Assembly (NCBI RefSeq): GCF_030733385.1
Contig: NZ_JASHJC010000001.1
Span: forward strand, 62,001 to 126,000
Source: Roseovarius sp. MMSF_3359
GTDB lineage: Bacteria > Pseudomonadota > Alphaproteobacteria > Rhodobacterales > Rhodobacteraceae
Direction: 5' to 3'
DNA length: 64,000 nucleotides
Shown here: positions 28,761-42,250 of the stretch, one piece after another
Layout: each line of letters starts with the position of its first letter
Numbering within the stretch: position 1 is the stretch's first letter
Notes under the pieces: model-generated
The model's input: only the letters and a program-made list of their open reading frames with translations
Databases searched by the model: none
Told to the model about the DNA's origin: nothing
Translations under genes and position numbers: made by a program

Positions 28761-31628
28761 CTACCAATCGTTGCGTTCGTAGCTGTCCGTCATCTCGTGT
28801 GATTGCTCGGAACTGCCCGATTCGGATACGGGTTCATCCATGACATCGTCGTCGCGTTCGTGATCGGCATCGTCATCGCGCGGCTCTGCTTGATCACCCG
28901 CCCAGCCCTGGTTGCCTGAATTGTCATCCGCGTCCGCCAGGAAAACATCTTCATCCCCACCTTGGCCGGATGGGGCATTGCTGATGTCGCCAACCTCGAT
29001 CTCGAAGCTACGGGTTGCTTCGATTGGCTCGCCGTTGAACGCGGTATCGGCATAGGCGAACTCCGCCGAAATGATCCCTTCGAAACCGGGCGGTGGCATC
29101 AGTTCGACCATATCCAGATCCCAACCGGAGAGATCGAGATCGGACCCATCGGCCACGATGGAATCCTCGCCGCTGACAAGGATCGTGTCGGCGGGGATGC
29201 CGGAGACGATGACACTGCTGTCGTCGCCCATGTCCGAGATTGACAGACCCATTTCCAATGTGCCGTTTTCCGGAACAGCCAGATCCGTGTCTGCGGTAAC
29301 AAGCTCACGCCCATCCGTATCGGGGCCGTCCCATTCGAGCTTCAGGCCGGCATGTCCGTAATTCTCGAAATACCGGATTTCGACCTCATGAGTGCCGGGT
29401 TCGAGGTCAATTTCGCCGGAGCGTGTCCGAAACCCGTGCAGCCCGTCATTATCGATGACCTCAACACCGTTGATGTAGAGAACAACGCCATCATCGCCGC
29501 CAATGAAGAAATCATAATTTCCCCCTTCTTCCACGGTTATCTCGCCGGTGATGCGGGCGCCAAAGGTATCGTCGTCACCACCCTCCCAGAACGAGTCACG
29601 GCCATTCTTGTAGTTCACCTCGCCGACGATCTCCTCCTTGGTGGGATCGGCATCCCAATTGATCTGATCCAACCGGCTGAGGCTGTGATCGACATCGAAG
29701 TAGCTGGCCCGAAACCCGCCTTGCAGGGTCATCTCGGGCGGGGTGATATCGGCCTGGTCCACATCAAACGAAAGCTCCTGCGCCGACACGGCGGTATCCC
29801 CGTTTTCCATCGTGACTTCGGTGGTGACCTGCGCATTGACCGTCCCGGTGAAATCAACCGGTGGGGTGATCTGCATCATCGACGTGTCCCAATCGGTGAT
29901 GTCGGCGGTGCCGTTCTCGCCGACCTCCACCATGTGATCGCCAGCCTGAACGATTGTTCCCGGTGGCAGCCCGTCGATCATCTGGCTGATTGTCCCGTCC
30001 GACAGCTGCCCCGCACCCGTGTCGAGGTTCAGGTTCAGCGGCATCCCGTTGACCGTGTGCAGGTCGTCGACCCCCGGCGGGGTCAGCAATTCGCGCCCGT
30101 CGAGCCCGGGCCCCTCCCATTCCACTTTCAGCCCCGCATGGCCGTAGTTCTCAAAGTACCGGACCTCAATCACGTGAGTACCGGGTTCCAGATCAATCTC
30201 ACCGGAGCGGGTCCGAAACCCATGCAGACCGTCATTATCAACGACTTCCTGACCGTTGATGTAGAGCACGACCCCGTCGTCACCACCGATATGAAAATCG
30301 AATGTGCCGCCTTCTTCGACCTCGATATTGCCGGTGATCTGGACCCCAAATGTATCCTTCGAGCCGTTCTCCCAGAAAGAATTGCGGCTATTGGTGTAAT
30401 TGATGTCGTCAACCAGTTCCTGATGGGTGACATCGCCGTTCCAATCGACATCGTCAATCGAACGGATCGTCTGGTTCATGTCGAAATAGCGCGCGTGAAA
30501 TCCGGTGCCGATCGACGTATCGGGGACGTCTGCGACCGCGATATCAAAACTCTGGACAATGCTCGCACCACCTGAATCCGTGGCGGTGACGTCAAGCGTC
30601 AGGTTCGCCGCCTCATCCGGATCAAGGGTGCCCCCCTCCTTGAGCTTGACCTCGTTTCCGACCACCTCGAACCGATCATCGGAGACCGCGAAGCTGTGGC
30701 TGTCGCCAATATCCTGGTCGGTGACCGACAGGGTGCCGACAACGGCGCCGTCGGCATTTCCGGCAAGCGCGTGGTTCGACAGCGCCATTTCAACCGGTGC
30801 TTCGTTCATGTCGGTAACCGCGATCTCGAAACTCTGCGTCACGGAGGCGCCCGCGTCATCGGTCGCGGTCACGTCGAGGGTCAGGTTTTGTATCTCCTCA
30901 TGGTCGAGGCTGATGCCGTCCTTGAGTTTGACGAACCCATCCACGACTTCGAAACGCTCATCGGACAGGGTGTAGGTATGGCTGTCGCCCCTGTCCTGAT
31001 CCGACACGGAAAGCTCGCCCACGATTGCGCCTTCGGCGTTTTCTGCAACCGCCGTGTTGGACATCCACACACTGGTGGGCGCGCTATTCTCTGCGGTGGT
31101 TTCTTCGGGCGCGGCCTCTTCTTGTTCGGCGGCCTCACCATTGGCCTCGGTCGCGGGCCCGTCATCGGTGGTCGGTGCGGTGTCTGCACTGCCGGATTGC
31201 TGCGCCGTCGCAGAGCGCGCAGGCGCTGCTTGCGCGGTGTCGGCTTGCGGAGTGCTGTTACGTTCTCCGGTGTCTCGGGTCCCGGTCGTCCGTTGGTCCT
31301 GCACATCGTCTTCATCACCGGTGACATCGGCATTGGTGCCGCTGGCTGGCGCGTCGGATGGTGCTGTGTGGGTAGTGCCCGCGGCTGACGGTTCACTGTC
31401 ATCCTGAGGTTTTTGCGCAGAGGCTTCCTGCGGCGCGGCAGCATCCTGATACGCCGAGCCAGATGTCTCCCCCTCATGATCTTCGCCGTAATGCAGGGCG
31501 CCCCGACTTTGATCTTCGGGGTTATGCTGGGCCGCCTGCTTGGATTGCGCTGCGGCCTTTTTCTTCAAGTCATCGGACTGAGGCTGAACTTCTTCCGAGC
31601 CACCTTCATCAAAAGCGTGATCTTCCAT
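28761..31628 (-). CDS. Large acidic cadherin-like/PA14 repeat protein, candidate type I secretion cargo
   Basis: The 955-residue protein begins at the ATG at 31628 with AGGAGA upstream. Residues 1-185 are low-complexity, acidic and Ala/Gln/Thr-rich. Two cadherin-like repeats follow (about 190-370), each with a DQDxGDSH motif. Two PA14 domains (376-516 and 636-776) are separated by an Ig-like segment (516-636), another Ig-like segment reaches about 886, and a very acidic tail ends in ERNDW. There is no Sec or Tat signal, and no GGxGxD nonapeptide repeats. PA14 domains often bind carbohydrates. It is divergent from two ABC proteins and HlyD, so I infer export by them as an adhesin or surface protein. 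Confidence 0.8.
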   Translation of the reverse strand: MEDHAFDEGGSEEVQPQSDDLKKKAAAQSKQAAQHNPEDQSRGALHYGEDHEGETSGSAYQDAAAPQEASAQKPQDDSEPSAAGTTHTAPSDAPASGTNADVTGDEDDVQDQRTTGTRDTGERNSTPQADTAQAAPARSATAQQSGSADTAPTTDDGPATEANGEAAEQEEAAPEETTAENSAPTSVWMSNTAVAENAEGAIVGELSVSDQDRGDSHTYTLSDERFEVVDGFVKLKDGISLDHEEIQNLTLDVTATDDAGASVTQSFEIAVTDMNEAPVEMALSNHALAGNADGAVVGTLSVTDQDIGDSHSFAVSDDRFEVVGNEVKLKEGGTLDPDEAANLTLDVTATDSGGASIVQSFDIAVADVPDTSIGTGFHARYFDMNQTIRSIDDVDWNGDVTHQELVDDINYTNSRNSFWENGSKDTFGVQITGNIEVEEGGTFDFHIGGDDGVVLYINGQEVVDNDGLHGFRTRSGEIDLEPGTHVIEVRYFENYGHAGLKVEWEGPGLDGRELLTPPGVDDLHTVNGMPLNLNLDTGAGQLSDGTISQMIDGLPPGTIVQAGDHMVEVGENGTADITDWDTSMMQITPPVDFTGTVNAQVTTEVTMENGDTAVSAQELSFDVDQADITPPEMTLQGGFRASYFDVDHSLSRLDQINWDADPTKEEIVGEVNYKNGRDSFWEGGDDDTFGARITGEITVEEGGNYDFFIGGDDGVVLYINGVEVIDNDGLHGFRTRSGEIDLEPGTHEVEIRYFENYGHAGLKLEWDGPDTDGRELVTADTDLAVPENGTLEMGLSISDMGDDSSVIVSGIPADTILVSGEDSIVADGSDLDLSGWDLDMVELMPPPGFEGIISAEFAYADTAFNGEPIEATRSFEIEVGDISNAPSGQGGDEDVFLADADDNSGNQGWAGDQAEPRDDDADHERDDDVMDEPVSESGSSEQSHEMTDSYERNDW

Positions 31629-31805
31629 AACGTCTCCTGCGCGTCTAGGTGGGCAAACCAATGGCGGATTATTGAAAAGAAAAATTTAATCGCAACGAAC
31701 TTCACCGGCGCATTCGACTCAAATCCAATGCAAAAACCAGGAAAGCTAAGGAATTAAGAAACCTTGATCCTTCATAGGTAAGGCCGGTGATGAAGGATTC
31801 GATTT

Positions 31806-33524
31806 GTGAATAAACCGGACTCAGTTCAGTCTTTGCCCGTGCCTCCGCCGCGGATCGGCTTCACGGTCTTTGCGGCCACGCTAAGCCTTAATTTACTGGC
31901 GCTGGCGCTGCCTTTGGTGGTGCTGCAGGTCTTTGACCGGGTGATCCCGTTCGCGGCGACGGCAACCCTGTTCTACCTCTTTGTCGGCCTTTGTGTCGTC
32001 GCCCTGCTCGAATTCGCTCTGAAATGGGCACGGGCGGTTTTGCTCGGCGGTAAAGCCGAGCAATTTGAGATAAAACTGAGTGAAAAATTCGTCGATGCGA
32101 CCCTGAACGCAGACCCGGAAGAGTTTCGCAAGACAACGCCAGCCTCTCACCTTGATCGGTTGAGTGCAATATCGCAACTGCGCGGGCATTATGGCGGGCA
32201 GGCGCGGGCGCTGTCGATTGACCTGCCGTTTACGGTGATCTTTGTCGCGATGATCGCGATGATCGGCGGTTGGCTTGTTGTTGTTCCCCTGGCAAGTCTC
32301 GCGCTGCTCTTGCTTTTCAAAACGGCCCTAACACGGGCGCAATCCAAGGTGTTCGACCGGCGCAAGACCCTGGATAGCCGACGATACTCCTTTCTGGTCG
32401 AAGTGTTGTCGCAGATCAGAACGCTGAAAGCGAATACGATGGAGCCGCAAATGCAGCGGCGTTATGAGCTTTTGCAGGAGCAGACCGTTGATATCAGCCA
32501 CGATGTCATCCTCTTTTCGGGCTTTTCGCAAACATTTGGCGCGCTGTTTTCGCAGATGGCTGTGGCGGGTATGGGCCTCTTGGGCGGCTACCTTGTCATC
32601 ACATCCCATATCGGCATTGCCGAACTTGCGGCATGCATGCTCCTCAATGGCCGCACGGTTCAACCCATGTTGAAAGCCCTGAGCCTCTGGGCGCAATCCG
32701 AGAGTCTGTCGATGGCCAAGGCCAAGATTGCCGAGGCTTGCGATGCGCCGCAGCGACCGGTGATGACAACCCTTCAGCCGGACATGCAGGGGCAAATCCT
32801 GTTCGATGACCTGGGCATGAAACACCATGACCGGGAGGAGTATCTTTTCCAGGGCATTCATGGGGAAGTGCAATCGGGGGAATGTCTGGTACTGGACGGT
32901 CATAGCGGGTCCGGCAAATCAACCTTGATGAAGTTGATCCTGGCCGAATTGTCGCCATCGGAGGGGGACATCCTGATTGATGGTGAACCTGCGGACCGGT
33001 TTGCGAACCTGCGTGGGGCGGGCGGCATCGTCTATTGCGATCAGAACCCCGTGACGTTCGCCGGAACCGTGCTGGAAAACATCTCGTCCTTTGGCGATGG
33101 CGAGGTGATCGAGCGATCGCTGCGACTGTCCGAACAGCTTGGGTTGGATAAAATTCTTCACCGTCTGCCCATGGGCTACAACACCCCAATTCACGAAAGC
33201 AGGGCGCTGCTGAACAACCAGAATTTCCTGCAAGCCGTGACCATCGTTCGGGCGTTGGCACTGCGTCCCCGGGTTCTGCTGCTGAACAATGTCACGGTCA
33301 CGATGGATGATGCGACCCGGTCGAAACTCGCCGATGTCCTCGAAAATCTCAAAGGACACACGACGATAGTCATCTCCAGTACCGATGGCGCGCTGACCCA
33401 ATTGGCCGACACCCGCATACACCTCGAAACCAGCACGGAAATGCTGGTCCGCGAATGGGATGCAGATACGGCCGAAGACAGCGAAAGTGCCCAGCAGGAA
33501 ACCGTTGAGAAGAGGGCCGGATGA
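31806..33524 (+). CDS. Type I secretion ABC protein 1 with degenerate ATPase domain
   Basis: The 572-residue protein has five to six membrane segments (residues 15-290) and a C-terminal nucleotide-binding domain. Walker A is good (GHSGSGKST, 365-373), and a Q-loop Gln is present in YCDQNPVTFAG. The signature LSGGQ is replaced by LLNNQ (468-472). Walker B reads LLLNNVT, with N494 and N495 instead of Asp-Glu. The H-loop has VISSTD and no His. It probably binds ATP but hydrolyses it poorly. The start is GTG at 31806, preceded by GAAGGA. The stop overlaps the next ABC gene (ATGA), so it is probably half of a heterodimer. Confidence 0.82.
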   Translation: MNKPDSVQSLPVPPPRIGFTVFAATLSLNLLALALPLVVLQVFDRVIPFAATATLFYLFVGLCVVALLEFALKWARAVLLGGKAEQFEIKLSEKFVDATLNADPEEFRKTTPASHLDRLSAISQLRGHYGGQARALSIDLPFTVIFVAMIAMIGGWLVVVPLASLALLLLFKTALTRAQSKVFDRRKTLDSRRYSFLVEVLSQIRTLKANTMEPQMQRRYELLQEQTVDISHDVILFSGFSQTFGALFSQMAVAGMGLLGGYLVITSHIGIAELAACMLLNGRTVQPMLKALSLWAQSESLSMAKAKIAEACDAPQRPVMTTLQPDMQGQILFDDLGMKHHDREEYLFQGIHGEVQSGECLVLDGHSGSGKSTLMKLILAELSPSEGDILIDGEPADRFANLRGAGGIVYCDQNPVTFAGTVLENISSFGDGEVIERSLRLSEQLGLDKILHRLPMGYNTPIHESRALLNNQNFLQAVTIVRALALRPRVLLLNNVTVTMDDATRSKLADVLENLKGHTTIVISSTDGALTQLADTRIHLETSTEMLVREWDADTAEDSESAQQETVEKRAG

Positions 33525-35614
33525 TGGAAAACACCTTGCCATCTGCTATCAATATCCTCGACCGCGTCATGTCTGCCGCGGGATGGCACAGTAATCACAA
33601 CCGGCTTTTTGAAGCGGTGCCGCATATGTCCGACACGCTGAGTGCGGACGACATGATCAAGACACTCGAAAATCTCGGTGTCCCGATCGCCTCCCAAAGG
33701 TGCAGTTCGAGCCAGATACAGTCCAAAGACTGCCCTGCGCTCTTTATCCAAGACGATGGCGCGGTTGTCGCGATGTTCGAACGTGCGGGCGACAGTGTCT
33801 TGGCCTGCGACATCGAAGAAGAAACACCGGATTGGCGCGAGTTGGGCAATGCCAGCGGCCTTCTGGTCCGGTTGGAGCGGTTCGACAGCAACCAGGAAGT
33901 TGACGAAACCGTCGGGTTTTCGCAAATCACCCGGGAATTCAGCGGGTTGTTTCCCTGGCTGGTCTTTGCATCATTCATGTCCAACCTGGCCGGCCTGGCC
34001 ACGCCTTTGCTCATCATGGTCATTTACGACCGGGTTATTCCCTCCGGGTCGGTTGACCTTGTCTTTTCGCTGGTGCTGGCGGTTCTGCTGGCCCTGGCGG
34101 CCGATTGCGGTTTCCGATACGCAAGGTCAAGCGCCGTCGCCTTCATGGGGCGGCGCACCGAGCACCGGATGGGACTGGCACTTTTCCGCAAACTTCTTGC
34201 CCTGCCGATCGACCAGATCCAGAAATCCGATGTCGAGCAGCAATTGTCCCGTTTCAGGCAGTTCGAAAGCCTGCGGGATGTCTTCAGCGGCCAGACGATG
34301 ACGACGCTGCTGGACCTCCCCTTCATCTTCATCTTTCTGATTGTCCTTTTCATCCTTTGCCCGCCGGTTGCATGGCTCGTCATCGGGTTGTCGGTCATCT
34401 TCGGTTTTGCCATCTGGCTGAACCTGCCGAAACAAAAGGCCCTCAACGCCCAGGCCGCGGAACGCAAGACACAACTGCATAGTCACGTCTTCGAGGCGAC
34501 CGAGAAACAACGTGCCATCCAAAGGCTGGGCCTTGTCGATCGTTGGCGGGATCGAAATGCCGTTCTGGCCCGACAGGCCGCGCAAGCCGCCCGCAAGGCG
34601 AGCAATTTCAACCTGGTCTCACAAGCCTTTGGGCAGACCTTGATGGCCATCGCCGGGATTGGCGCCGTGGCAATGAGTGCCCTGGGCGCAATCGAGGGCA
34701 GCATCACTTTTGGCGCCCTGATTGCGGTTATGGCGCTGGTCTGGAAGGTGCTGACCCCGCTTCAGGCCCTCTATTCCAACGCGCCGCAAATCCTCTCCTT
34801 CGTCGCAAGCAAGCAACAAAGCGACCGTGTCCTTGCCCTGCCTGAAGAGGTGGTTCGCGGCATCGGACAGAACCACCAGAAGGCCTTTAACGGGCAGGTG
34901 ACCATAAGCGGCGTGACCCATCGCTACGACGCCACGACATCGGCGGTTCTGTCTCAGGTGTCATTGGATATCGCCGCCGGAGAGTTCGTGGTCGTCTGCG
35001 GCGACAGCAACAGCGGCAAGACAACGCTTTTTGACCTCATCTGCGGTTTTCGGCAGCCCAGCATTGGATCAATCCAGCTTGACGGTGTCGATGTGCGCCA
35101 GATAGCAGTGGACGATCTGCGGCGGTCCATCACCTATGAGCAGTCGCGGACCGAGCTCTTTTACGGCACGATCTATCAAAATTTCCGCCTTGCCTCGCCC
35201 AGCCTGAGCGAGACAGACATGATTGCCGCGCTGGAAGCGATGCAGTTGATGGACGAAGTGCGGAAGTTCCCCGATGGCATCCATACCCGCCTTTCCGAAG
35301 CCTTTCGCGGAAGCCTTTCGCCGACCATGCTGAGATCACTCGCATTGTGCCGCAGTCTCGTGCGGGAGGGGCCGGTGCTTTTGCTCAATGACCCATCGGC
35401 GGGTCTGGATCAGCCGCGCAAGGACGCATTGGCCAGCGAGCTTGCCCGGCTGAAAACCTCGAAAACGATCCTGGTGGCAACCAACGATCCCAGCCTGATC
35501 TCCTTGGGTGAGCGTTTCGTTTACCTGGACCAGGGCCGGATCGTGGCCAATGACACCGGCGCTGCGGGGCGAAAGAAACTGACCGCGATACAGAACAAAC
35601 TCGGAGGTAGATGA
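33521..35614 (+). CDS. Type I secretion ABC protein 2 with N-terminal extension and degenerate ATPase domain
   Basis: The 697-residue protein has an N-terminal domain of about 130 residues that resembles the inactive C39-peptidase-like domain of RTX exporters. Membrane segments follow (about 145-410), then a nucleotide-binding domain. Walker A is GDSNSGKTT (494-502). The signature reads LSPTM (599-603), Walker B reads LLLNDPS with N623 and D624 for the usual Asp-Glu, and the H-loop is VATND. So this ATPase also departs from consensus at three catalytic positions. It overlaps the preceding ABC gene by four bases and precedes the HlyD gene by four, which supports one export complex. Confidence 0.82.
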   Translation: MMENTLPSAINILDRVMSAAGWHSNHNRLFEAVPHMSDTLSADDMIKTLENLGVPIASQRCSSSQIQSKDCPALFIQDDGAVVAMFERAGDSVLACDIEEETPDWRELGNASGLLVRLERFDSNQEVDETVGFSQITREFSGLFPWLVFASFMSNLAGLATPLLIMVIYDRVIPSGSVDLVFSLVLAVLLALAADCGFRYARSSAVAFMGRRTEHRMGLALFRKLLALPIDQIQKSDVEQQLSRFRQFESLRDVFSGQTMTTLLDLPFIFIFLIVLFILCPPVAWLVIGLSVIFGFAIWLNLPKQKALNAQAAERKTQLHSHVFEATEKQRAIQRLGLVDRWRDRNAVLARQAAQAARKASNFNLVSQAFGQTLMAIAGIGAVAMSALGAIEGSITFGALIAVMALVWKVLTPLQALYSNAPQILSFVASKQQSDRVLALPEEVVRGIGQNHQKAFNGQVTISGVTHRYDATTSAVLSQVSLDIAAGEFVVVCGDSNSGKTTLFDLICGFRQPSIGSIQLDGVDVRQIAVDDLRRSITYEQSRTELFYGTIYQNFRLASPSLSETDMIAALEAMQLMDEVRKFPDGIHTRLSEAFRGSLSPTMLRSLALCRSLVREGPVLLLNDPSAGLDQPRKDALASELARLKTSKTILVATNDPSLISLGERFVYLDQGRIVANDTGAAGRKKLTAIQNKLGGR

Positions 35615-35618
35615 CGCC

Positions 35619-36944
35619 ATGAACTGGAAAAATCGCCCAAACACCGACGGTGTGATCGCTCGCGCCGAAGCGCGCAACGCGCAACGTGGTGCGGGAACGG
35701 CAAAAATCATCATCATCACGATCGCGGGTTTCATCGCGGGCGCTATCTGGCTCGCGACCGCGACGACGGTGCCGGAACTGGTGCGCGCCCAAGGAGAATT
35801 GCTCCCCACAGGTAACTACCAGCAAGTACAAGCGCCCGAACAGGGCATCGTGAGGGCGGTTCTCGTCGAAGAGGGGGACAGTGTTGCGGTCGGGCAGGTC
35901 TTGACCGTCCTTGCGTCCGCTACGCTGGAACAGGAGTGGCAGGATGTCAGCCGGGAGAGGAACGCCCAGGAATTGCGATTGCAAAATTTGCGCGTGATCG
36001 CGAAAGTGGCCAGCTCAGGGCGGATGATTGCTCCGGATGAAATCGCTGCCATGGCGCCGGTCGATCTGTCCTACGCCATCGCCCGGCTGGAGCTATTTGC
36101 GGACCAATATGCGGTTCAGCAAAAACTCGAGAAACACCTGCAACACACGCAATCGACGCTCAAAAATGCGCGCTCCCTGACGCTTGAACGTATCGAGGAA
36201 CGCAAGAAGCGGGTCGACCGTGCAGAGCGTCTGTTTGGGGAAAACCTGACGCCGCTCCGTGATCTGGAGAGGCAGCAGGACAGCCTGGATCAATTGCGGG
36301 CCAGCCTGATCGAGATCGACATTCGCCTGTCGCAGGCGGCCAAGGAGCTTGGCAGCGCAAGCGCCCCGCTGGAGCAGACGCGCATCGCGCTGATGGAACA
36401 GACGAACAAGGAGATTTTTGACCTTGAACAGGTGGTGGCGCAACTGACGCTACGCGAAAACGCGCTGCGACAACGGCAGGCCTCATTGGAAATCCGTGCG
36501 CCTGAATCCGGCGTGATCCACGCGGTTGGCTTTCCGAATCCTGGCGAAGTGATTGCCACTGGCACAACCCTTTTCGAACTGATGCCCTCGGGGCCGCAAC
36601 TGGTTGCACAACTCAAGATCGACCCGGTGGACATCGGTCACATCAAGCGAGGCGATACGGTGGCGCTGAAATTTGACACTTTCGATCCCCGTCGTTTCGG
36701 TCAGGTCGCAGGCCGGATCAGCAGTATTTCCCCAAACTCGGTCATTGATGAACAAACCGGCGCTGGTCACTTCCGGGCGACAGTCGCATTGGAGCAGGAA
36801 GCCATTGGCAGCGGTGTTTGGCAACGGGAGCTTCAGGCGGGAATGGGCGCCTCTGCCGAGATCGTGACAGATGAGCGGACCGTGCTGGCCTACCTGATGA
36901 AGCCGATCAAACGCTCCTTCGATAATGCCTTTGGCGAACGCTGA
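35619..36944 (+). CDS. HlyD-family membrane fusion protein of type I secretion
   Basis: The 441-residue adaptor has one N-terminal membrane helix (about 27-48), a split lipoyl domain (VQAPEQGIVRAVLVEEGDSV and later EIRAPESGVIHAV), a long coiled coil between them (about 100-290) and a C-terminal beta-barrel region. Such proteins link an inner-membrane ABC exporter to a TolC-type outer-membrane channel. GGAGGT precedes the ATG at 35619. It is the last gene of the three-gene operon; no TolC gene is present nearby. Confidence 0.92.
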   Translation: MNWKNRPNTDGVIARAEARNAQRGAGTAKIIIITIAGFIAGAIWLATATTVPELVRAQGELLPTGNYQQVQAPEQGIVRAVLVEEGDSVAVGQVLTVLASATLEQEWQDVSRERNAQELRLQNLRVIAKVASSGRMIAPDEIAAMAPVDLSYAIARLELFADQYAVQQKLEKHLQHTQSTLKNARSLTLERIEERKKRVDRAERLFGENLTPLRDLERQQDSLDQLRASLIEIDIRLSQAAKELGSASAPLEQTRIALMEQTNKEIFDLEQVVAQLTLRENALRQRQASLEIRAPESGVIHAVGFPNPGEVIATGTTLFELMPSGPQLVAQLKIDPVDIGHIKRGDTVALKFDTFDPRRFGQVAGRISSISPNSVIDEQTGAGHFRATVALEQEAIGSGVWQRELQAGMGASAEIVTDERTVLAYLMKPIKRSFDNAFGER

Positions 36945-40183: not shown

Positions 40184-42250
40184 ATGCGCAACGAAAGAAT
40201 TGATCTAGGCTCTTCTGTGCCGCTGTCGGAGGCGGTGTCCGAGGTATCGGGCGCCGCATCCGATCCGTTTGCCTTGGCCAGACGGTTGCAAACGGCCGTC
40301 TGGATCTATGACATTGACAATGCGCGCATCGCCTATGCCAACCAATCCGCCGTGCATCTTTGGGATGCCAAGAGCGAGGACGATCTGCGCAAGCGCGATC
40401 TGGCCAAAGATATGTCCTCGACGGTCGCGAACCGGTTGAAACAGTACCAGGCCGATTTTCAGGAGCGCGATGCCGTCTTCAACGAGATGTGGACGCTCTA
40501 TCCCAAGGGGAAGCCCACAAGCGCGATGGTGGTCTATCGGGGCTTCGAGATGCCCGATGGACGCATGGCCATGCAGTGCGAGGTTCTGGGCGAGGCGAAC
40601 GACCAACCCGACAACCTGCGCAGCGCCGAAGCGTTGCTGCACACCGATGTCATGATCACGCTTTACGAAATGGACGGCCCGCCGCTCTACATGAACCCGG
40701 CCGCTCGAAACGCGGCGAAAGAGGTCATGCAGAAGATTTCGGACAAGTTCGTCGATCACACCGATTATGACAAGCTGGTCGCCAAGATGTCGACCAGTGG
40801 CGAACACCGGATGGTGGCCAAGGTAAAGGCGGACAATGGGCAACGTTGGTATGACCTGTCGGCTAAACAGTGTTCGGACGCGGTCACGGGTGATCCGGCC
40901 ATTCTGGTCACGGCCATTGATGTCAGCGAACTTAAGATTGCCCGCGACAAGGCGCGGTACCTGGCGGATCGCGATCAACTGACCGGATGCTACAACCGGG
41001 CTTACCTGCTCCGGCACATGGCGGCGCTGGAGAAATTTAAAACCGAACGCTGCGCGCTGCTCTATTTCGATGTCGATCACTTCAAACAGATCAACGACCG
41101 GCTGGGGCACGAGTTGGGCGATGTTGTTCTGCAGCGGATTGCCACACGCACCAATGATGCGATCCGCAGCAATGACACGCTTGTGCGTCTTGGCGGGGAC
41201 GAGTTTGTCATCGTGTTCGAAGATGTGCCGAGTGAGGCGGAATTCCTGCCAAAGATCGAAAACCTGCTTGAGGTTCTGTCGCGGCCGATCACCCATGACA
41301 CGATGCGCGTGAGTGTCACGGCAAGCATGGGCATCGCGATGTTTTCGCCGGTCTCTGCCGATTTCACGGCGGTGATGCGCGAAGCCGATACCGCTCTTTA
41401 CGCATCCAAACAGGCGGGCCGAAACCGGGTCACGGTCTTCAACGATGAAATGGGCAGCAAGGCGCAGGCGCGCGATCTGGTCGAATTGCAACTCAAGAAT
41501 TCGGTCAAGGAGCGTGATTTCGTGCTGCACTTTCAACCGCGCGTGAACCTGGCCACGGGCCGGGTTGTTTCGGTTGAAGGGCTGGTGCGCTGGCAGCATC
41601 CGGATCGTGGTATCGTGCTACCGGGTGAATTTATTCCGATCTGTGAGGAGACCGGCCTGATCGAAGAGCTGGGTCAACTCGTGCTGGAGATGGGGTGCAA
41701 ACAGGCCATTGCGTGGCACCGCTCCGGCATCGACGTCGAACTTTCGCTGAACATTTCACCCCGGCAGTTTGACGATGCGAGGTTGATGGAGGCGTTGCGC
41801 GAGTTTTCCAAACATCCCGACTTCCCCGACGGCAAGATTGAACTTGAGATCACTGAAAGTGTCCTCATCGGCGATCACGGGCTGATCGAAGGGAAGTTGG
41901 AGAAAATTGCACAGATGGGGTATCGCATCGCGATTGATGATTTTGGCACGGGGTATTCGAACCTCTCCTACATCTCCCGTTTTCCGCTGAACTGCCTGAA
42001 AATCGACCAGTCGTTTATCAACCAGTTGCCCAAAACTGGGCCCATCATCGGCCTTATCCTCACGCTCGCCAAACAAATCGGGGCAACGGTCGTGGCAGAA
42101 GGTGTCGAGACCCAGGAACAATTTGACTGGCTTTGCCAGAACGAGTGCAACCAGGTCCAGGGTTTCCTGTTGTCGCGGCCTGTGCCGGTCGAGGAAATCG
42201 AGAAGGTGATAGAGAAGCTCGACCTCTCGAGACGTGGTGAATGCACTTAG
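40184..42250 (+). CDS. PAS-GGDEF-EAL cyclic-di-GMP turnover protein
   Basis: The 688-residue soluble protein has two PAS-like sensor regions (about 30-145 and 150-265), a GGDEF domain with an intact catalytic motif G337-G-D-E-F, and an EAL domain. The EAL signature reads E465-G-L, a common active variant, and the catalytic positions in NISPRQF, LEITES, DDFGTGYSNLSYI and AEGVET are kept. Both synthesis and hydrolysis of cyclic-di-GMP are possible. There are no membrane segments. It is convergent with cobF, 24 bases away. Confidence 0.9.
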   Translation: MRNERIDLGSSVPLSEAVSEVSGAASDPFALARRLQTAVWIYDIDNARIAYANQSAVHLWDAKSEDDLRKRDLAKDMSSTVANRLKQYQADFQERDAVFNEMWTLYPKGKPTSAMVVYRGFEMPDGRMAMQCEVLGEANDQPDNLRSAEALLHTDVMITLYEMDGPPLYMNPAARNAAKEVMQKISDKFVDHTDYDKLVAKMSTSGEHRMVAKVKADNGQRWYDLSAKQCSDAVTGDPAILVTAIDVSELKIARDKARYLADRDQLTGCYNRAYLLRHMAALEKFKTERCALLYFDVDHFKQINDRLGHELGDVVLQRIATRTNDAIRSNDTLVRLGGDEFVIVFEDVPSEAEFLPKIENLLEVLSRPITHDTMRVSVTASMGIAMFSPVSADFTAVMREADTALYASKQAGRNRVTVFNDEMGSKAQARDLVELQLKNSVKERDFVLHFQPRVNLATGRVVSVEGLVRWQHPDRGIVLPGEFIPICEETGLIEELGQLVLEMGCKQAIAWHRSGIDVELSLNISPRQFDDARLMEALREFSKHPDFPDGKIELEITESVLIGDHGLIEGKLEKIAQMGYRIAIDDFGTGYSNLSYISRFPLNCLKIDQSFINQLPKTGPIIGLILTLAKQIGATVVAEGVETQEQFDWLCQNECNQVQGFLLSRPVPVEEIEKVIEKLDLSRRGECT

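Follow-up and report, generated by a model that had tools for sequence, protein, structure and literature searches.

The DNA analysed here (hereafter, the window) is a stretch of 64,000 nucleotides from Roseovarius sp. MMSF_3359, a member of the Rhodobacteraceae (contig NZ_JASHJC010000001.1, positions 62,001-126,000). It contains a four-gene locus in which the gene for a large repeat-bearing protein, the putative cargo, is divergent from the genes for two unlike ATP-binding cassette (ABC) proteins, denoted ABC1 and ABC2, and a periplasmic adaptor of the HlyD type. The preliminary description of this DNA correctly gave the layout, with a cargo of 955 amino acids (aa) divergent from ABC1 (572 aa), ABC2 (697 aa) and HlyD, as well as the overlap of 4 base pairs (bp) between the two ABC genes (bases 33521-33524). 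The genes and the region between them are as follows:

28761..31628, minus strand: cargo gene; the ATG at 31628 yields 955 aa, and a longer frame starting with TTG (28761-31661) yields 966 aa
31629..31805, no strand: divergent intergenic region of 177 bp, from the cargo ATG to the ABC1 start; sequence poorly conserved
31806..33524, plus strand: ABC1 gene; GTG start, 572 aa; exporter membrane domain and degenerate nucleotide-binding domain (NBD), without a C39-like domain
33521..35614, plus strand: ABC2 gene; 697 aa; N-terminal C39-like region, exporter domain and degenerate NBD
35619..36944, plus strand: gene for the HlyD-type periplasmic adaptor; 441 aa; TIGR01843 match over the cut-off

The size of the intergenic gap had also been given correctly, but its interpretation as a shared regulatory region is not supported by the alignment of five such regions, which is poorly conserved (mean column identity of 45%) and contains no conserved operator; the shared promoter was therefore dropped. 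The gene arrangement itself is more than chance because ABC1, ABC2 and HlyD follow each other in the same order and on one strand in all 31 unfused related loci that were fetched. Overall, the pairing of the ABC proteins and their link to the cargo held up in our analysis, whereas the loss of the ATP-hydrolysis residues in both ABC subunits had been overlooked.

Each of the two ABC proteins matches the Pfam families ABC_membrane and ABC_tran, and the adaptor matches HlyD_3. The best profile for both ABC proteins is LssB (TIGR03375), with scores of 300.6 (ABC1) and 363.9 bits (ABC2) that are far under the cut-off of 693.1, and no LssB over the family cut-off was found in the window genome. The adaptor scores over the cut-off of TIGR01843 (243.3 bits against 208.65), and a TolC-type channel is encoded on another contig, unlinked to the locus (TIGR01844, 302.5 bits against 225.15). 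Pfam detected no C39 family in the N-terminal 143 aa of ABC2; the region is labelled C39-like because the full-length LssB match begins at residue 13 and because of fold matches to HlyB and PCAT1. In single-chain AlphaFold models the NBD fold is kept in ABC1 (mean predicted local distance difference test score, pLDDT, 85.2; predicted template modelling score, pTM, 0.68) and in ABC2 (mean pLDDT 81.0, pTM 0.44). The closest solved structure for both models is HlyB of the HlyB/D complex (template modelling score of 0.84 for ABC1), and PF00005 was found in 55 of the 60 ABC1 homologues scanned.

Degenerate ATP sites in both ABC subunits

In an ABC dimer, one subunit contributes the Walker motifs to each ATP site and the other contributes the signature motif. 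The corresponding segments of the window proteins, all encoded on the plus strand, are the following:

32898..32924, plus strand: ABC1 Walker A, GHSGSGKST, intact
33207..33227, plus strand: ABC1 signature region, LLNNQNF instead of LSGGQ
33276..33296, plus strand: ABC1 Walker B, LLLNNVT, with Asp and catalytic Glu both replaced by Asn
33375..33389, plus strand: ABC1 switch region, SSTDG, without His
35000..35026, plus strand: ABC2 Walker A, GDSNSGKTT, intact
35315..35329, plus strand: ABC2 signature region, LSPTM instead of LSGGQ
35378..35398, plus strand: ABC2 Walker B, LLLNDPS, with Asp replaced by Asn and Glu by Asp
35477..35491, plus strand: ABC2 switch region, ATNDP, without His

Because each site combines motifs of both subunits, both ATP sites of an ABC1-ABC2 heterodimer would be degenerate. 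For the homologues, we compared, in one alignment, the best 120 of 154 ABC1 matches and the best 120 of 141 ABC2 matches (approximately 8,000 candidates scored for each). The Walker A Lys is kept in 55 of these ABC1 and 66 of these ABC2 proteins, the Walker B Asp in 7 and 22 (and hence lost in 113 and 98), the Walker B Glu in 51 and 75, and the Q-loop Gln in 46 and 29, respectively. The Ser-Gly-Gly of the signature is absent from its own column in all 120 proteins of either set; neither LSGGQ at any position nor the combination of catalytic Glu and switch His was found in any of the 240. Within their final 230 residues, 4 ABC1 and 7 ABC2 proteins contain the letters SGG at some position, and 9 and 5 proteins have a His no more than three columns away from the switch position. 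Counted by locus, with the window included, the Walker A Lys is present in both subunits in 7 of 32 loci, in one subunit in another 7 and in neither in 18; none of the 64 subunits combines Glu with His, and no consensus nucleotide site is kept. In the control set of family LssB proteins, the Lys, Ser/Thr, Q-loop Gln, signature Ser, Walker B Asp and Glu, and switch His are all found in 30 of 30, and the Gly of the second signature position in 24 of 30; being the top-scoring loci, these rows lean towards intact motifs. The ATP motifs are also intact in three other ABC exporters of the window genome and in exporters of Ensifer and Cupriavidus. Public annotation overlooked the missing ATP sites: the homologues are often named 'ABC transporter transmembrane domain-containing protein', and some are named HlyB, LapB or RTX-I toxin determinant B.

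At the level of the sequences, it is specifically the ATP site that has lost constraint, and the ABC genes are under purifying selection. The mean conservation of 14 ATP-site columns, the best conserved portion of the LssB NBD, is 0.957 in LssB, against 0.554 for the rest of the NBD; the respective values are 0.448 and 0.488 for ABC1 and 0.505 and 0.585 for ABC2, these being contrasts within sets that differ in size and depth. Other NBD residues are nearly invariant (e.g., F547, G549, T550, Q553 and N554 of ABC2). The ratio of nonsynonymous to synonymous substitution (dN/dS), obtained from the single unsaturated pair of loci (L033 and L034), is 0.137 for the NBD of ABC1 and 0.170 for that of ABC2, 0.083 and 0.115 for the respective membrane parts, and 0.098 for HlyD; all other pairs are saturated (proportion of synonymous differences, pS, at least 0.67), with computable values of at most 0.25. 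Furthermore, the ABC genes have open frames in all 32 loci.

Pairing of the subunits and association with the cargo

In the 31 unfused loci, the ABC1 and ABC2 frames overlap by 4 bp in 16 cases and by 1 bp in 4 cases; in the other 11, the overlap is longer by the mechanical frame, with an uncertain start. Over 31 loci, the window among them, the correlation between the ABC1 and ABC2 distances is 0.98, but much of it is explained by shared history, as the value for ABC1 and HlyD is nearly as high at 0.96. Two proteins in which ABC1 and ABC2 are fused were identified, one on plasmid AZO_p3 of Azospirillum lipoferum 4B (L068, 6009-10145, approximately 1,380 aa) and the other in genome G378 (L105, 7185-11108, 1,307 aa). 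In a tree of 61 rows (14 of the 120 ABC1 and 14 of the 120 ABC2 proteins, five distant loci, both fusions, 14 of the 30 LssB proteins and five other canonical exporters), some end branches of which are long, one branch (100/100) sets apart all 21 ABC1 rows, including the N-terminal halves of the fusions, and a different branch (100/99) sets apart all 21 ABC2 rows, including the fused C-terminal halves. The proposal of a heterodimer of two unlike subunits, a pair that looks obligate, is thus well supported by the conserved order and overlap, the fusions L068 and L105, the distance correlation and the two tree groups; it is from the conserved pairing and the fusion in relatives that we infer the heterodimer. 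With the Azospirillum fusion at one end, the homologues form a series between one plausible working half and no such half, the loss probably having proceeded in that order. The module also resides on plasmids of Phaeobacter piscinae, P. inhibens and P. gallaeciensis (L033, L034 and L071), where the cargo reaches approximately 3,400 aa; L033 and L071 are near-identical Phaeobacter plasmids, and in L034 and L071 the cargo is annotated with a start further downstream than that of the longest mechanical frame.

ABC1 was detected at an E value of 1e-60 in 11 of 295 genomes of the family and, in a sample of the order, in 20 of 390 genomes and 9 of 139 genera. With two candidates scored per genome, any cargo match at 1e-20 occurs in 22 of the 295 family genomes; full-length cargo matches (over 400 bits) are present in seven, all of which possess the ABC pair, and in none of the 284 family genomes without ABC1 at 1e-60. 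The cargo gene lies divergent beside ABC1 in 26 of the 31 unfused loci. Among the remaining five, L027, L029 and L030 are near contig ends, and no adjacent cargo was found in L031 and L032 by the same search. These counts bear out the earlier claim of a dedicated cargo, and the co-occurrence check revealed no cargo homologues regularly present without the pair, save one distant paralogue in genome G171. The latter protein (L056; contig C1, 840444-842216) is only distantly cargo-like, contains an LLHTG stretch, does not have the C-terminal RxDW tag described below and is encoded away from the exporter; possibly, it is a second substrate. In genome G194, which has a less degenerate pair, there are partial frames with RTX-like glycine-rich repeats (L029, 3-917, and L042), one of them divergent beside ABC1.

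The cargo itself is an acidic protein (207 Asp and Glu against 41 Lys and Arg in 955 aa) without a single Cys. No Sec signal is visible at its N-terminus, which is acidic and hydrophilic as read from the sequence without a signal-peptide program. Pfam detects PA14 in two stretches (4.6e-30) and, weakly, Cadherin in one. PA14-type domains can bind sugars with calcium. The following features, all on the minus strand, were delineated:

31482..31517, minus strand: cargo N-terminal tag EDQSRGALHYGE, residues 38-49; conserved motif in the alignment of homologues
30822..31055, minus strand: cadherin-like repeat, residues 192-269; Pfam 4.4e-05, under the curated cut-off
30108..30503, minus strand: PA14 domain 1, residues approximately 376-507 (ends approximate), with GGDDG at 448
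29322..29717, minus strand: PA14 domain 2, residues approximately 638-769 (ends approximate), with GGDDG at 710
28764..28781, minus strand: cargo C-terminal tag YERNDW at the extreme end; the R-x-[DE]-W end is common to adjacent cargoes

As judged from the alignments, the conserved parts of the protein are its ends. R42, L45, H46 and G48 of the N-terminal tag are invariant across the 35 rows of our alignment A2, which were hand-picked as full length from the best 120 of 235 cargo matches, and an LHxG motif is located near the N-terminus of 24 of the 26 cargoes adjacent to ABC1. The R-x-[DE]-W sequence forms the extreme C-terminus of 19 of the 20 complete adjacent cargoes; the cargo of genome G086 (L039) has it as well. 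In the best 120 of the 235 matches, many of which are fragments, the C-terminal tag was found in 94, the N-terminal tag in 68 and both in 62. The DNA pattern of the C-terminal tag has a single occurrence in the window genome, at the cargo end; over seven genomes, it occurs only at cargo ends, once each in four of the seven. Between these ends, the protein is variable: the number of cadherin-like repeats differs among homologues, and the 20 complete adjacent cargoes range, by mechanical frames, from 833 to 3,449 aa, the larger ones having more of these repeats. RTX nonapeptide repeats (GGxGxDxx) are absent from each of the 20. The end tags are the putative export signal. Elsewhere in the window genome, at the end of contig C33 (L010 of G000), a frame with a PA14-like stretch ends in a long HGDGDNHGGGDN repeat that leaves the contig.

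Proposed mode of export and its alternatives

Collectively, the absence of a visible Sec signal from the cargo, the retention of HlyD, the presence of TolC elsewhere in the genome and the strict pairing suggest an export function. We put roughly even weight on the reading that the four genes form a module of type I secretion ancestry: the ATP-degenerate ABC pair, likely a heterodimer, would work with HlyD and the unlinked TolC to export the PA14 cargo without ATP hydrolysis of its own. Under this scenario, ABC1 and ABC2 would pair as a heterodimer, HlyD and TolC would join them, and the adjacent adhesin-like cargo would leave through this assembly. The remaining NBD bodies might serve as a scaffold for dimerization and cargo docking, given that other NBD residues are nearly invariant while the ATP site drifts. 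RTX proteins provide a precedent for folding on calcium outside the cell as a drive; similarly, the acidic, repeat-rich cargo might be pulled out by folding with calcium in calcium-rich sea water, the export perhaps being started by the membrane potential. More tentatively, we propose an ATP-independent type I system across the Roseobacter group, in which an ATPase-dead heterodimer, whose ancestor was fused or paired and had one working half, would export its own end-tagged adhesin to the cell surface by means of cargo folding or membrane potential.

Several observations weigh against this proposal. Both subunits of the window species have an unaltered Walker A, so that ATP binding may persist there; the switch His is kept in 4 of the 120 ABC1 and 1 of the 120 ABC2 homologues; some homologues (P0239 and P0120) are less degenerate; and in the Azospirillum fusion each half still has Walker B, with a switch His in the second half. 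L028 and the cargo of G001 (second contig, L035) are exceptions to the C-terminal tag. Four of the 11 ABC1-bearing family genomes, namely G008, G024, G194 and G276 (28-31% identity), are without a full-length cargo and have no cargo match or one at the domain level only. There is no glutamate ladder like that of the peptide importer SbmA, only one new conserved acid in a membrane helix. Finally, calcium-driven folding, our favoured energy source, is a guess by analogy with RTX proteins.

The foremost alternative, which we consider unlikely, is that the pair is still driven by ATP through non-canonical chemistry, with binding at the Walker A motifs kept in some species followed by slow hydrolysis, or with binding alone. 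Such chemistry would fit the Walker A retained in both subunits of the window and of 7 of the 32 loci, as well as the predicted intact NBD fold, and heterodimeric exporters function with one degenerate site, according to a published account (PMC8277102). However, both subunits are degenerate in their signature, Walker B and switch region, where the His is missing, and a shared mechanism cannot need the Walker A Lys because neither subunit has it in 18 of the 32 loci, even if related loci count repeatedly among these 18.

Less likely still, the dead pair could share a mixed assembly, of three dimers around six HlyD subunits, with a canonical ABC dimer that is encoded elsewhere in the genome and supplies the ATP hydrolysis. 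Borrowing of this kind is conceivable because the HlyB-HlyD complex consists of three HlyB dimers and six HlyD, as described in PMC11026475, and the window genome does encode other ABC exporters with intact motifs, two of which we label type I-like by size. It does not, however, encode an LssB over the cut-off, and no third exporter gene, nor any fifth gene or energiser, is conserved at the locus: in the flanks, to which this survey was confined without a genome-wide search for partners, the most recurrent groups of frames (at least 150 aa) reach 4 of the 33 fetched loci, several flanks ending early at contig ends. One of these recurrent groups consists of unlike ABC ATP-binding proteins (246-589 aa, 25-40% alike) that keep LSGGQ.

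We regard as improbable, more so than either of these possibilities, that the pair is not a translocator at all and instead acts as an inner-membrane anchor or assembly platform positioning an adhesin exported by another system. The erosion of the ATP sites under continued constraint on other NBD residues would fit such a platform, and the conserved cargo ends could serve as docking tags; nevertheless, no Sec signal is visible on the cargo, and an HlyD scoring over the cut-off is retained in the operon, as in an exporter. The probability that the ABC genes are decaying relics without a present role is negligible: their ATPase motifs are lost, but the open frames, the dN/dS values far below 1, the near-invariance of non-catalytic NBD residues and the co-occurrence with the cargo count against decay, and the pseudogene reading was rejected on the dN/dS values and the NBD conservation.

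Relation to known systems

An ATP-hydrolysing ABC protein is the defining component of type I secretion. ATP-independent export by the module, if true, would challenge the rule that such secretion runs on its own ATPase. An eroded pair that is under selection and tied to a cargo makes it testable how far export through type I channels needs the ATPase and whether folding outside the cell can drive export; the Azospirillum fusion, the partly degenerate pairs and the pairs without Walker A offer a natural series of loss.

The module resembles type I secretion systems (LssB/LapB, TIGR03375, and HlyB, PDB 8dck) in the HlyB/LssB/PrtD exporter fold, the HlyD over the cut-off, the C39-like N-terminus of ABC2, the unlinked TolC, and a large, repeat-bearing cargo without a visible Sec signal. 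It differs from them in having two unlike ABC subunits with ATP-hydrolysis motifs degenerate in both, in the lack of RTX repeats in the 20 complete cargoes and in ABC scores far under the LssB cut-off. Unlike subunits and degenerate motifs are shared with TmrAB, TM287/288, BmrCD and TAP; those systems, TAP among them, keep one working site, in contrast to the module, where both are degenerate. In PMC8277102, TmrAB is described with one working site and has been listed as a type I system. The export pair of NHLP bacteriocins (TIGR03796/TIGR03797) likewise consists of two unlike ABC proteins named as a set, but the module proteins score far below the respective cut-offs (147.3/135.8 for ABC1 and 193.3/200.4 for ABC2). 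By sequence, the cargo PA14 region is similar (6.7e-07) to PDB 6m8m, 'Putative large adhesion protein (Lap) involved in biofilm formation'; the cargo differs in having two PA14 domains and its own end tags. Among the matches listed in a search of mostly non-subscription literature, there was neither an account of a type I exporter degenerate at both ATP sites nor one of this cargo. Two roseobacter genome papers mention other type I genes, and the passages considered do not name the module locus (PMC4148982; PMC4511512).

A further parallel is SbmA, a SLiPT protein with an ABC-type membrane domain that works on the proton gradient without an NBD, the SLiPT proteins being proposed to originate from ABC transporters that lost their NBDs (PMC13316013). 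Like SbmA, the module has an ABC-exporter-like membrane domain proposed not to run on its own ATPase; unlike the module, SbmA has neither an NBD nor coupling helices, takes up peptides and contains a glutamate ladder, as described in that source, whereas the module keeps the NBD bodies and has a single new conserved acid in a membrane helix:

32622..32624, plus strand: ABC1 Glu273, where the last membrane helix begins; the position is acidic in 119 of 120 ABC1 homologues and 0 of 30 LssB

This column is mostly Ala in ABC2, and our reading of the AlphaFold model places Glu273 close to where this helix has its outer end; Asp117 and Asp190 of ABC1 are placed in cytoplasmic parts. As only Glu273 stands out, a proton ladder was rejected as a reading and is left as a hint only. 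Outside the module, a GGDEF-EAL protein is encoded approximately 3 kb past HlyD (window positions 40184-42250, plus strand); a similar protein (30% identity) was found in the flanks of one of the 33 loci, L095.

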